Part shown: one piece after another, positions 10,665 through 62,988 of the stretch
Position numbering within the stretch: the stretch's first letter is position 1
How the letters are laid out: every line of letters begins with the position of its first letter
DNA from: Pontibacter populi
Lineage (GTDB): Bacteria; Bacteroidota; Bacteroidia; Cytophagales; Hymenobacteraceae
Assembly: GCF_019336435.1 (NCBI RefSeq)
Contig: NZ_JAHWXQ010000005.1
Span: 62,001-126,000, forward strand
Reading direction: 5' to 3'
DNA length: 64,000 nucleotides
Position numbers and translations under genes: made by a program
Notes under the pieces: generated by a model
Told to the model about the DNA's origin: nothing
What the model saw: the letters and a program-made list of their open reading frames with translations, nothing else
Databases searched by the model: none

Positions 10665-11025
10665 GGTGTAAGGTCTTCTACATGGCGCGAGCGTTTTCGC
10701 TCATGTTGAACTATAGCCTGTGCCTCCGCCATATTCGGGTAAAGCAACTATAGAACTGTTGCAACACCTATATTAATAGTAGGGAGTCACATTTGAAGGG
10801 GTTAGGGAGAACAAAAGGAAACTATAGAACCCAAAGCAAACTATAGCAACAGCCGAAATTCCCCTCTCGGGAGGGGCAGGGGTGGGTTTTTACATTACAC
10901 GAATGTCATAGATTGATCAACTATGGTTCGTGATCTGGCCGGTTTTACTTAATTTTAAAGAATCTTATAGTTTATAGTTCTGGCTTTTTATACAATTCAG
11001 CTGGTCCTGTTTTTAAATACTGAAC
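10665..11025. other. Non-coding spacer with repeat fragments
   Basis: No gene is seen between the pyc terminator and 11026. The stretch has at least five CTATAG motifs, and at 10857-10888 an inverted copy of one module of the dispersed repeat described at 11393-12060. Confidence 0.5.
10857..10888 (-). repeat. Inverted copy of the 'CCCACCCC..CCTCCC' repeat module
   Basis: The reverse complement of this stretch matches 11533-11563, 32317-32348 and 47404-47434 almost base for base. The core is a CCCCTCTCGGGAGGGG self-pairing segment. Confidence 0.75.
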
Positions 11026-11375: not shown

Positions 11376-11392
11376 TTATCATTTCGGTGGTC

Positions 11393-12060
11393 CAATCACC
11401 CCGGTACGTCCTTGTCTAAGGTAGGGAGCTTTTTGGCGGCTACTTCTCCTTCTGTCATTCTGAAAGAATCTTGGTAGAAGGTCGGTAAGGCCTTTGCTAT
11501 AGTTCAGATAATCATTTTATAGTTTGCGTTTTAACCCACCCCAGCACCTCCCGAGAGGGGATTTTCTGCTATAGTTGTAGTTTAGGTTGCAGTTCTATAG
11601 TTGATGCTTTAACACCCCTGTCGTCCCCTCAAGGGGACAATTGCAGCCAATACTAATTTATAAACTATAGTTCTATAGTTACAGTCCAAGATCAGGACAG
11701 GTTTACCAGTCCCTTTGAAACTGTAGCCACGATAAAAGTCGAAGCCTCCCAGTTCAAACTATGTATATAGGTAACTATGCGAAAGATCTCAGTCTTTGGG
11801 TTGAGCGCCTCGAGAGGTTCCGGTGCCGTCAGGCATGGCGAGGAACGAGCCAAGGAAGCGAAAGCAGCGCGATGCCCGAAGACGGGGCCTCCCGGCCGTG
11901 AGGGCACCAAAGCTAAATTGAAACGATAGGCAACTAGAGCTCCCAGGATTGGAGTAGCTATAGAAGAAAAGGCTTGGCTCAGGTTGTAGAGCAGCCAACT
12001 ATAGAACTATAAGCTGAGATAGATTTCTCCCTTTGGTCGAAATGACAGAGAGGGAAACTA
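11393..12060 (+). repeat. Dispersed composite intergenic repeat, copy 1
   Basis: About 670 bases between two convergent genes share a series of modules, in the same order and orientation, with 32180-32893 and 47402-47925. They are: a TCATTCTGAAAGAATCTTGG module; CCCACCCC..CCTCCCGAGAGGGG; CACCCCTGTCGTCCCCTCAAGGGG; a GGACAGG-TTTA-CC(T/A)GTCC hairpin; the 119-nt core (11794-11912); GAGCTCCCAGGATT; and AGATAGATTTCTCCC..GAAATGACA. No transposase or terminal inverted repeat was seen. CTATAG motifs punctuate the modules. Confidence 0.85.
11794..11912. repeat. 119-nt structured core of the repeat, copy 1
   Basis: The ends pair (CTTTGG with CCAAAG). Inside is TGCC-GTCA-GGCA, and in the nearly invariant 3' half CCCGAAGACGGG and GGCC-TCCC-GGCC. 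The core is exactly as long as in the other two copies. On the minus strand the same bases keep an open frame of about 50 codons (PGGPVFGHRA), so RNA and peptide readings both remain possible. Confidence 0.7.
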
Positions 12061-12290
12061 TAGAACCTATTAAATTTCTTGACTTTGCTCGGGATGGCAA
12101 AAGCGTGTAAATTAACTATAGCCCAGACGCTAGCAAGAGCTTCGCACACTGCCAGGTCTTACTTTCTAATCCTTAAATTCCCTGTTCAAACCAAAACCTT
12201 ACCGTAACAAAACCTGCTTAAATAAGTTATATAGGTATAGTTTGGAAATATGCTGCATGCATACTATTTTTGGTTCATGCAGCCGGCAGC
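12061..12290. other. Spacer between repeat copy 1 and the TPR gene
   Basis: No gene is seen. It includes a GCCCAGACGCTAGC..CTTCGCACACTGCCAGG segment that looks like another short intergenic repeat module, then AT-rich sequence. Confidence 0.4.
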
Positions 12291-32179: not shown

Positions 32180-32893
32180 CAATCACCCGGCCCTTCCTTT
32201 TCTAAGGCGGGGAGCTTTTACGGCTACTTCTCCTCCTGTCATCCTGAAAGGATCTTGTTAGAAGGTCGGTAAGGCCTTTTCTATAGTTCAACGGATAGTT
32301 TTATAGCTGGTGTTTTAACCCACCCCTGCCCCTCCCGAGAGGGGAATTGCTACTAAAGCTATAGTTGATGGCATTATTCTATAGTTGCGGCGTTAACACC
32401 CCTGTAGTCCCCTCAAGGGGACAATTACCGCATTTACCAATTTCCAAGCTATAATTCTATAGTTACAGTATTACCCCTTCCCAACCTTCCCCTAAAAACA
32501 GGGGAAGGAGCTTGTCTATAGCTACAAACCACGAACAGGACATGTTTACCTGTCCCCTCGGAACTATAGCCACGATCAAGCGATGAAACTATAACTATAA
32601 TATAAACTATAAAAAAAGCTATCGAACTGATCTCAGTCTTTGGGGTGAGCGCCTTGTAGATTTCTGGTGCCGCAAGGCATTGAGAGGTACGAGCAAAAGA
32701 AATGTACACCGCGCGATGCCCGAAGACGGGGCCTCCCGGCCGTGAGGGCGCCAAAGCTAACTATAAAATAGTAGGCAGGTAAAGCTCCCAGGATAGGATC
32801 TGATTTGAAAGGAAGGCTGGGTTCAGGTTGCGGGTAACTTCAACTATAAGCCGAGATAGATTTCTCGCCGTGGCTCGAAATGACAAAAGAGAA
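32180..32893 (+). repeat. Dispersed composite intergenic repeat, copy 2
   Basis: About 710 bases upstream of guaA and of ffs share the modules of copy 1 in the same order, starting CAATCACCC and the TCATCCTGAAAGGATCTTG module. The end is AGATAGATTTCTCGCC..GAAATGACA. One added hairpin (CCTTCCCC/GGGGAAGG, about 32482-32508) is specific to this copy. The 119-nt core is at 32638-32756. Confidence 0.85.
32638..32756. repeat. 119-nt structured core of the repeat, copy 2
   Basis: Same length as the other cores. CTTTGG/CCAAAG closes it. Core positions 18-28 (TGTAGATTTCT) pair with 61-71 (AGAAATGTACA) at 10 of 11 places. The inner hairpin has a GCAA loop (TGCC-GCAA-GGCA), a GNRA tetraloop. Confidence 0.75.
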
Positions 32894-47401: not shown

Positions 47402-47925
47402 ATTAACCCACCCCAGCCCCTCCCAAGAGGGGATTTACGGCTGGTGCTGTAGTTGTTAGTTATTGTTCTATAGCTACTGTTTTAACACACCTGTAGTCCC
47501 CTCAAGGGGACAATTGCTGCTACTGCTTCCCATCTGTCATTTCGACGAAGGAGAAATCTGAGTTCCCTATAGATACAGTCCATGAGCAGGACAGGTTTAC
47601 CTGTCCCTATGAAACTATAGCCACGATAAAGCGATGCAACCATAGCAGCTACTTAAACTATAACTTTTACTATCGAACTGATCACAGTCTTTGGGTTGAG
47701 CGTCTTGTAGATTTCTGGTGCCGTCAGGCAAGGCGAGGAACGAGCAAAAGAAATGTACACCGCGCGATGCCCGAAGACGGGGCCTCCCGGCCATGAGGGC
47801 ACCAAAGCCATATTGAAACGATAGGTTAATTGAGCTCCCAGGATTAAAGAAGGCTATGGAAGATAAGGCTTAAACTATAAGCTAAAATAGATTTTTCCTG
47901 ACGTTGAAATGACAAAGAGGAACAA
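47402..47925 (+). repeat. Dispersed composite intergenic repeat, copy 3
   Basis: About 520 bases between GT61 and topA hold the same modules as copies 1 and 2, but lack the first 'TCATTCTGAAAGAATCTT' module. It has an extra CATTTCGACGAAGGAGAAATCT stretch (about 47538-47560), inverted relative to the final AGATTTTTCC..GAAATGACA module. The 119-nt core is at 47689-47807. Confidence 0.85.
47689..47807. repeat. 119-nt structured core of the repeat, copy 3
   Basis: Again exactly 119 bases from CTTTGG to CCAAAG. It follows copy 2 in its 61-71 arm and copy 1 in its TGCC-GTCA-GGCA hairpin, so the three copies recombine features. Confidence 0.72.
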
Positions 47926-61922: not shown

Positions 61923-62988
61923 AAGCAAAGCAGAAAAAATTGCCAGCTTCGACCCGAATGGAGTAGGAGATATAAATGCAGGACTTTTCGGTCTGCCCTT
62001 TACTGTAGATGAAGCCGAAGTTGTCGTGATTCCTGTTCCCTGGGAAGTGACAGTATCGTATAGTGCCGGTACTGCCGATGGCCCGCAGGCTATTCTGGAT
62101 GCCTCGCCGCAGATAGACCTTTTTGAGCCAGCCTTAAAAGACGCCTGGAAAGCTGGTATTGCCATGGAGGAAATCTCAGAAGAGTGGCATAGTATAAGTA
62201 ATGAACTGCGCGAGAAAGCGGAGAGATACATTACCTGGCTGGAAGAAGGTCAACCAGAGGTGGATGCTACTGAACTGGAAAATGTGCCGGCTGAGATAAC
62301 TGCGAAAGGCGAAGAATTGCTGCAGTGGCTAAAGCAGAAAGCACTTGGTTATCTGGATCAGGGTAAAGCTGTTTGCGTGCTTGGCGGAGACCATAGTACA
62401 CCGCTTGGTATGATACACGCCCTGGCTGAAAGACATGAGGAATTTGGAATCCTGCAGCTGGATGCTCATGCCGATCTACGCGTAGCTTACGAAGGCTTTA
62501 AGTATTCCCATGCATCCATTATGTACAATGCGCTGCAGGTACCTCAGGTTAAAAAACTGGTGCAGGTTGGTATCCGCGATCTTTGCCAGGCAGAAGCCGA
62601 AATGGCAGAGCAATCAAATGGCCGCATTACTATTTTCTATGATGCCGTGCTGAAAGAAAATATGTATGCCGGCGACAGCTGGAAAAAAGAGTGTAAAAAG
62701 ATCATCGCGCAGCTGCCTCAGAAAGTGTACCTGAGCTTTGATATCGATGCCCTTGATCCGAAGCTGTGTCCGGGAACGGGTACGCCGGTTCCGGGTGGAC
62801 TGGAGTTTGAAGAAGCCGTTTACCTGATCAAGCAACTGGTTAAATCCGGACGTGAGATAATAGGCTGCGACCTGAACGAAGTAGCTCCGGGTGATACAGA
62901 ATGGAATGGTAACGTAGGTGCACGCCTGCTTTACAAGATCTGTAACTGGATGGCCGCTTCGCAGGGAAAACTTAAAGCTGAGTTTTAA
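61894..62988 (+). CDS. speB: Agmatinase
   Basis: 364 residues of the ureohydrolase family with the manganese ligands in [23 protein letters not shown] and FDIDALDP, and a final DLNEVAPG. It makes putrescine from agmatine, the substrate for the spermidine synthase encoded just upstream, so the two genes form one polyamine operon. The extra segment around residues 90-155, with Glu-rich helices, is longer than in E. coli SpeB. The start at 61894 lies inside the speDE frame; translational coupling is likely. Confidence 0.92.

Follow-up and report, generated by a model that had tools for sequence, protein, structure and literature searches.

What kind of element fills three intergenic spaces of one bacterial contig with the same series of short modules, and carries no protein gene of its own? 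The question is raised by a stretch of 64,000 nucleotides from Pontibacter populi (the window; positions 62,001 to 126,000 of contig NZ_JAHWXQ010000005.1), in which such copies lie between the genes for an ABM monooxygenase and a TPR protein (copy 1), between guaA and the small SRP RNA (copy 2), and between a glycosyltransferase-61 gene and topoisomerase I (copy 3). Their likeness is not due to chance, because BLAST E values within the window go down to 1e-93 and because a covariance model of their central part, the core, finds exactly three cores there, at E about 1e-44. Aligned end to end, the copies are collinear, with modules in a fixed order, all on the plus strand and all intergenic, as a preliminary description of this DNA had stated; the alignment also agrees with its remarks that copy 3 lacks the first module and that copy 2 has an added hairpin (about 32470-32515). 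An additional GTCATTTCG module in copy 3, at about 47530-47566, had escaped it. The parts are the following, with their basis in brackets where one applies.

11380..12204, plus strand: copy 1, whole segment, absent at the orthologous site of genome G033 (22 bp instead)
11393-12060, plus strand: copy 1, extent given earlier, within the whole segment 11380..12204
11393..11490, plus strand: first module of copy 1, missing in copy 3 (copy alignment)
11530..11570, plus strand: hairpin module CCCACCCC..CCTCCCGAGAGGGGA of copy 1 (copy alignment; consensus)
11610..11655, plus strand: hairpin module GTCCCCTCAAGGGGAC of copy 1, mostly missing in the consensus of the sister species, G031
11680..11760, plus strand: hairpin module GGACAGGTTTACC(T)GTCC and linker of copy 1, with a loop that differs species-wide in G031
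11786..11929, plus strand: structured core of copy 1 (covariance model R1, 157.5 bits; single-sequence fold z -1.08)
12005..12053, plus strand: tail module AGATTTCTC..TCGAAATGACA of copy 1 (BLAST within the window)
32180..32893, plus strand: copy 2, in the guaA - SRP RNA spacer (copy alignment)
32470..32515 (about), plus strand: added hairpin module CCCTTCCC..AAACAGGGGAAGG of copy 2 (copy alignment)
32630..32774, plus strand: structured core of copy 2 (R1, 156.0 bits; fold z -2.50)
47402..47925, plus strand: copy 3, in the spacer between the glycosyltransferase-61 gene and topoisomerase I (copy alignment)
47681..47824, plus strand: structured core of copy 3 (R1, 156.2 bits; fold z -3.40)
10839..10888, minus strand: solitary second hairpin module, outside any composite (BLAST within the window)

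The view of the copies as mosaics of smaller intergenic modules proved apt: one module occurs alone, and modules are lost, gained or exchanged among copies and among species. The palindrome CTATAG, which joins modules and is found within genes too, is in excess both in the window (94 occurrences versus 18.6 expected) and in an element-centred sample of stretches from G031 (603 versus 55.8); in guaA stretches from other species of Pontibacter it falls short of expectation, and TATACTT/AAGTATA is enriched there instead.

The number of copies had been put at three, which is an undercount. In the genome to which the window belongs (G000; 4.3 Mb, 11 contigs), a 27-mer of the core, with up to 3 mismatches allowed, occurs 73 times forward and 53 times in reverse, at 126 places in all (the reversed control gives 0), and in the single contig of the sister species at 78 places, 39 per direction; such a comparison with the whole genome and with relatives had been proposed in the preliminary description. 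A search of G000 with the long unit, in which the best 40 candidates were scored, gave matches that are 75-81% identical over about 460-670 bases. The core lies inside a predicted ORF in 0 of 84 copies (ORF heuristic), in keeping with the earlier remark that the copies hold no protein gene. The three window copies belong to a dispersed family of non-autonomous intergenic elements, about 100 in number.

The best named matches to guaA are Pontibacter, at 94%. Among 50 genomes of the genus, 43 have matches to the core model; copy numbers range from 0 to at least 63 per genome, with no match in 7 of the 50 and 1-3 copies in six more. In an order-wide sample 12 of 291 genomes match (six belong to the genus, four to two further genera of its family and two to different families), among them G104, which shows 11 copies when searched alone, and 20 genomes of another genus in the same family gave none. 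A phylum-wide sample of 395 genomes gave two matches, our own genome and one with a single copy. Searches of the open-licence PMC literature on Pontibacter repeats, REP and noncoding RNA, on palindromic repeats of Hymenobacteraceae/Cytophagales, on concerted evolution of intergenic or extragenic repeats and on structured RNA of Bacteroidetes gave no description of the family. Some local peculiarities may be recorded here. Elements are sparser at about 0.5-2.0 Mb of G031 contig C1, with 16 of the 78 copies in 35% of the sequence. G034, which has three matches in total, carries two opposed cores about 300 bases apart (L355/L360; C39:8597-9201). In low-copy species, small GGGGGTAGGGGCCCT-type inserts are seen within the core (L349, L351, L353, L354 and L358, at about 1480-1690); their place within the core varies by copy, as if tiny modules insert there.

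The folded core

The core, of ~145 nt, is a structured element and not just one more small module. In its predicted layout, an outer helix of 10 bp, a GCGC helix and a long one (H3) that bears two hairpins are followed by a GGCC hairpin, the 4-nt loop of which pairs with a downstream GAGGGC to form a pseudoknot. When 40 Pontibacter cores are aligned, 95.2% of the cells of the 41 proposed pairs are paired, as against at most 47.4% in controls where the structure was slid by 1-3 columns, and 21 of the 41 pairs show changes on both sides; 0 of 500 shuffles scored as high. The middle pair of the pseudoknot is C-G in 33, G-C in 5 and U-A in 2 of these 40 cores. A further 22 cores come from other genera, from other families and from one genome more distant still; in an alignment to the model, which favours the model's structure, they show two-sided changes in 28 of 36 pairs. 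This covariation shows that the core has a conserved multi-helix fold with a loop-tail pseudoknot, predicted for RNA or single-stranded DNA (ssDNA). A gathering search of the window with Rfam 15 left the core without a match, and a search of five loci at E values as high as 5 gave only scattered matches off the core.

Cells with G.U outnumber those with A.C by 41 to 7 when pairs that are usually G.U are left out, and the plus strand has a lower fold energy than the minus strand in copy 1 (-53.0 versus -48.2 kcal/mol), copy 2 (-53.4 versus -44.6 kcal/mol) and copy 3 (-54.1 versus -41.5 kcal/mol). It follows that the folded form is one particular single strand, as RNA or as ssDNA. The single-sequence energy of the plus strand, however, is uneven, with z values of -1.08, -2.50 and -3.40 for copies 1, 2 and 3, and copy 1 alone folds little better than its shuffles.

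One way to account for such a fold is an RNA useful to the host at each site (regulatory, terminator-like or acting on stability), with selection keeping the fold of every copy. Deep covariation, strand specificity and a near-invariant segment would all suit it; indeed, one 27-mer is conserved in 70 of the 126 G000 matches, which could mean a host-level function per site, and we count this against conversion among copies, discussed below. The elements also prefer the 3′ side of genes: of 53 distinct G000 copies placed by the ORF heuristic, 24 have convergent neighbours, 26 are in tandem contexts and only 3 lie between divergent genes. However, copies in tandem contexts occur in both orientations (15 with the genes, 11 against), no link to particular genes is seen, copies are altogether lacking in 7 of 50 congeners and number 1-3 in six more, and presence and orientation at a site differ among clades. 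We consider a host RNA unlikely, and the context looks like promoter avoidance rather than a tie to particular genes. An orientation bias with respect to the replication strand in G031 was also considered and set aside, as a loose by-eye trend from sampled GC skew.

Sites and orientations between species

The guaA-SRP spacer was compared in 50 genomes. Many species have a short, empty spacer of about 225-400 bases. In the clade of G000 it is filled in one orientation; in G023/G014/G021/G012/G013/G062, in G008/G061 and in G032 it is filled in the opposite one, and in G026 it is occupied by two cores of opposed orientation. The site of copy 1 is cleanly empty in G033, with 22 bases in place of 825, and occupied in G018, G060 and G027; in G031 it holds other repeats. 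From the empty, occupied and opposed states of the guaA-SRP spacer, and from the clean empty site for copy 1, we infer past mobility. The G033 site is the kind of empty site that the preliminary description had suggested looking for, and it lengthens the unit somewhat: the bounds proposed for copy 1, 11393-12060, fall inside an insertion unit of 11380-12204. The absence of a target duplication stood at this site, the only one that could be read cleanly, and so did the opinion that the copies are not insertion sequences, as they hold no transposase and no long terminal inverted repeat. The statement that terminal inverted repeats are missing is right for the long unit but not for the core, which in many copies has short complementary ends, CTATCG ... 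CGATAG.

One distant single core (L434:1480-1752, in G704) lies between 21-base inverted repeats, TTAACGTGTTGTGCTATTA.., in the manner of a miniature transposon. A flanking inverted repeat was rejected as a general feature of distant cores: 21 bases are seen only at L434, and the other 21 distant cores are flanked by inverted repeats of 9-17 bases, with one mismatch allowed. A progenitor gene beside the single copies of low-copy genomes was also sought, and these copies have no neighbouring gene in common; two of the three G016 copies are the orthologs of those in G010 and G017.

Between sister species, most copies hold both chromosomal position and orientation. We compared the flanked copies, 103 from G000 (of at least 126) and 77 from G031. 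A G000 partner that is orthologous on both sides and has the same orientation exists for 52 of the 77, with 0 inverted pairs, and partners for some of the 25 G031 copies left unmatched may be among the G000 copies beyond the 103; one further pair (L007/L155) stands outside the count of 52. The genes flanking the pairs are about 90% alike. In a third species, G060, whose flanks are about 80% alike, two-sided pairs number 9 and 8 of 21, and again no pair is inverted. It could be argued that the orthologs are only apparent and that hot sites were hit independently in each species, since the opposite orientations at the guaA-SRP spacer across clades indicate that one site can be hit repeatedly, and the copy 1 site in G031 has a different repeat cluster. 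But the lack of any inverted pair among the 52 of G031 or the 9 and 8 of G060, the maintained module order and the lack of near-identical copies in either genome speak against positional coincidence, which we regard as distinctly unlikely.

Sequence exchange among copies

Kept positions are not accompanied by kept sequences. A G031 core is on average 0.871 identical to its positional ortholog and 0.869 to the other G000 copies (paralogs being 0.861 identical within G000 and 0.900 within G031); the ortholog ranks first of 103 in 1 of 52 cases, with ranks from 1 to 102, and the proportion of 20-mers shared is 0.139 with the ortholog versus 0.159 with a random copy. In 40-base windows, orthologs and paralogs are about equally similar from about 400 bases upstream to about 40-160 bases downstream of the core. 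Outside the element the ortholog signal recovers, to 0.85-0.89 in the downstream gene versus 0.60-0.62 for other copies, and 158 control windows from 30 other intergenic gaps at the same loci have a mean of 0.873 between G000 and G031. For the G060 core, the values for the ortholog versus other copies are 0.78 versus 0.767 and 0.755 versus 0.760; this loss of memory is weaker evidence, because at that distance (flanks 80% alike) neutral sequence has also diverged far.

The long helix H3 occurs in four sequence types. Among fully classified copies, its two strands match in type in 90 of 94 from G000 and 70 of 71 from G031, and the type agrees at 18 of 49 orthologous pairs, with 18.1 expected by chance (6 of 180 unparsed copies and 3 of 52 unclassifiable pairs were left out); the two hairpins on H3 reshuffle likewise. 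Being matched between strands yet random across orthologs, these types indicate that whole helices have been exchanged, which point mutation does not bring about. Linkage (r2) is 0.12-0.18 for variants no more than 2 bases apart and drops to 0.014-0.015 for those separated by 81-120 bases, the sampling floor being 0.010-0.013. The maximum pairwise identity is 0.806 in G000 and 0.881 in G031, so that neither genome has near-identical, recently duplicated copies and no active transposition is seen there. Sharing of 20-mers in the core is higher within than between genomes (0.64 versus 0.49 for G000 and 0.79 versus 0.60 for G031), and 27 alignment columns have a different major base in the two species. 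As far as aligned sequences can tell, these data show a family in concerted evolution, the variants of which are shuffled in short tracts among the copies of a genome. Short-tract copying would be at work rather than transposition of whole units, because the latter would leave near-identical copies and long linkage.

One may ask whether any copying is needed, given that the core is constrained and that comparisons with G060 are near saturation: fast independent mutation to saturation, under a shared structural constraint, might blur orthologs as well. This reading is already disfavoured, and we hold it to be highly improbable, for ordinary intergenic DNA at the same loci is still 0.873 alike, entire helix types switch randomly between orthologous sites in both strands and in length, and most copies carry species-diagnostic variants.

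The explanation that we favour, as a rather probable one, is that ectopic gene conversion homogenises a structured element which is non-autonomous and was once mobile. The elements would formerly have spread as mobile units recognised via their folded single strand, by a postulated mover that recognises single strands; the copies would now mainly persist in place, while short-tract ectopic gene conversion from other copies keeps rewriting each of them; and the fold would be maintained as misfolded copies get lost or overwritten. We infer the gene conversion from the between-species patterns given above. It is also conceivable, though quite unlikely in our opinion, that a copy-and-replace system operates, in which one copy serves to make a single strand, of RNA or ssDNA, that overwrites other copies genome-wide. 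Pieces of this strand, of about 50-100 nt, would then overwrite matching stretches in a natural process, dedicated to homogenising the repeats and akin to recombineering, and the pseudoknotted core would be the handle for a trans-acting protein.

Two kinds of enzymes were considered in this connection. Copying via a reverse-transcribed intermediate (retron-, DGR- or intron-like) would go well with a structured core, and a cDNA donor would suit short tracts. However, RVT_1 reverse transcriptases are absent from G000, from G031 and from the high-copy genomes G033, G065 and G018; this effectively refutes RVT_1-type enzymes as the copying agent, and we deem the reverse-transcription route exceedingly improbable. 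A separate observation concerns G002, a genome with only two element copies: its contig C1 has seven identical-scoring genes for a 444-aa reverse transcriptase, six of which are paired with a gene for a 520-aa reverse transcriptase about 2 kb away.

The other candidate is a system of the REP/RAYT type, in which an HUH (Y1) transposase acts on the folded single strand and moves or replaces elements or modules singly. The asymmetry of the fold between single strands, the module-wise mosaicism and the nesting of small modules at varying places in cores are consistent with it. RAYT-like Y1 genes are present in 43 of the 50 genomes (3 in G000), and the number of copies goes with them: none of the 7 RAYT-less genomes has more than 2 copies, and 37 of 43 RAYT-bearing ones have at least 7 (Fisher p 1.7e-5, rho 0.68). 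But this correlation amounts to about three events (one clade plus G002 and G034), because low-copy genomes cluster, 11 of the 13 being found in one clade of 12 in the guaA tree. Moreover, G059 and G066 have RAYTs and lack the element, a pseudoknotted core of 145 nt is far larger than a REP, and the three RAYT genes of G000 are flanked by other palindromes, with 0 hits of element modules or core at E 0.01. A RAYT as direct mover was rejected in view of these other palindromes and of a correlation due mostly to one clade plus G002 and G034, and we find the REP/RAYT-type explanation doubtful. As to the RAYT loci of G000 themselves (L101, L102 and L103), each gene is bracketed by its own palindromic family, with inverted copies of up to 121 bp, and these palindromes are unrelated to the composite element.

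Taken as a whole, the preliminary description is supported in part; what it missed is the size of the family, the conserved folded core and the kept positions with fully reshuffled sequence.

Comparison with known systems

The usual view of dispersed repeats in bacteria is that they either move or decay where they are. In this family about a hundred copies stay put and yet, between species with genes that are 90% alike, lose all memory of position in their sequences; a loss of memory at this level of gene likeness would mean that dispersed loci exchange short tracts very actively. A pseudoknotted structured element missing from Rfam is a further addition, one that is common in Pontibacter and sparse in the rest of the phylum; and, with species that carry 0, 1-3 or over 60 copies, what sustains the family becomes directly testable.

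Among known repeats, the neisserial intergenic mosaic elements (NIME) form mosaic intergenic repeat clusters of small modules, as the Pontibacter family does. To our knowledge they have no long structured core; the two are set side by side here by description. We file the family as neither REP/RAYT nor MITE, because the defining features that were tested fail: the palindromes beside the RAYT genes of G000 do not match the element, the unit has no terminal inverted repeats, and there is no target-site duplication at the one clean site. The Rfam families, including the motifs presented in PMC2864571, likewise have an RNA-like fold supported by covariation; Rfam 15 gave no match here.

REP/REPIN sequences, as portrayed in PMC8049555, likewise persist as a sequence population within a genome and are intergenic and palindromic. 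The core differs from them in being ~145 nt long, with several helices and a pseudoknot, instead of a 20-40-bp hairpin or inverted pair. BOX elements of Streptococcus pneumoniae, treated with RUP and SPRITE in PMC3049150, are there described as composite, with a fixed module order, high-copy and intergenic, and also as having a predicted RNA fold and being non-autonomous and likely parasitic. The Pontibacter family has the fixed module order, the high copy number, the intergenic siting and the lack of an ORF of a BOX-like composite, a likeness of descriptions and not of boxA, boxB and boxC sequences. What sets it apart from BOX as characterised in that paper, whose main text does not use the term 'gene conversion', is a large pseudoknotted core found across genera and concerted evolution at fixed positions. 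With these differences in mind, the family appears to work most like BOX elements and REPIN populations.
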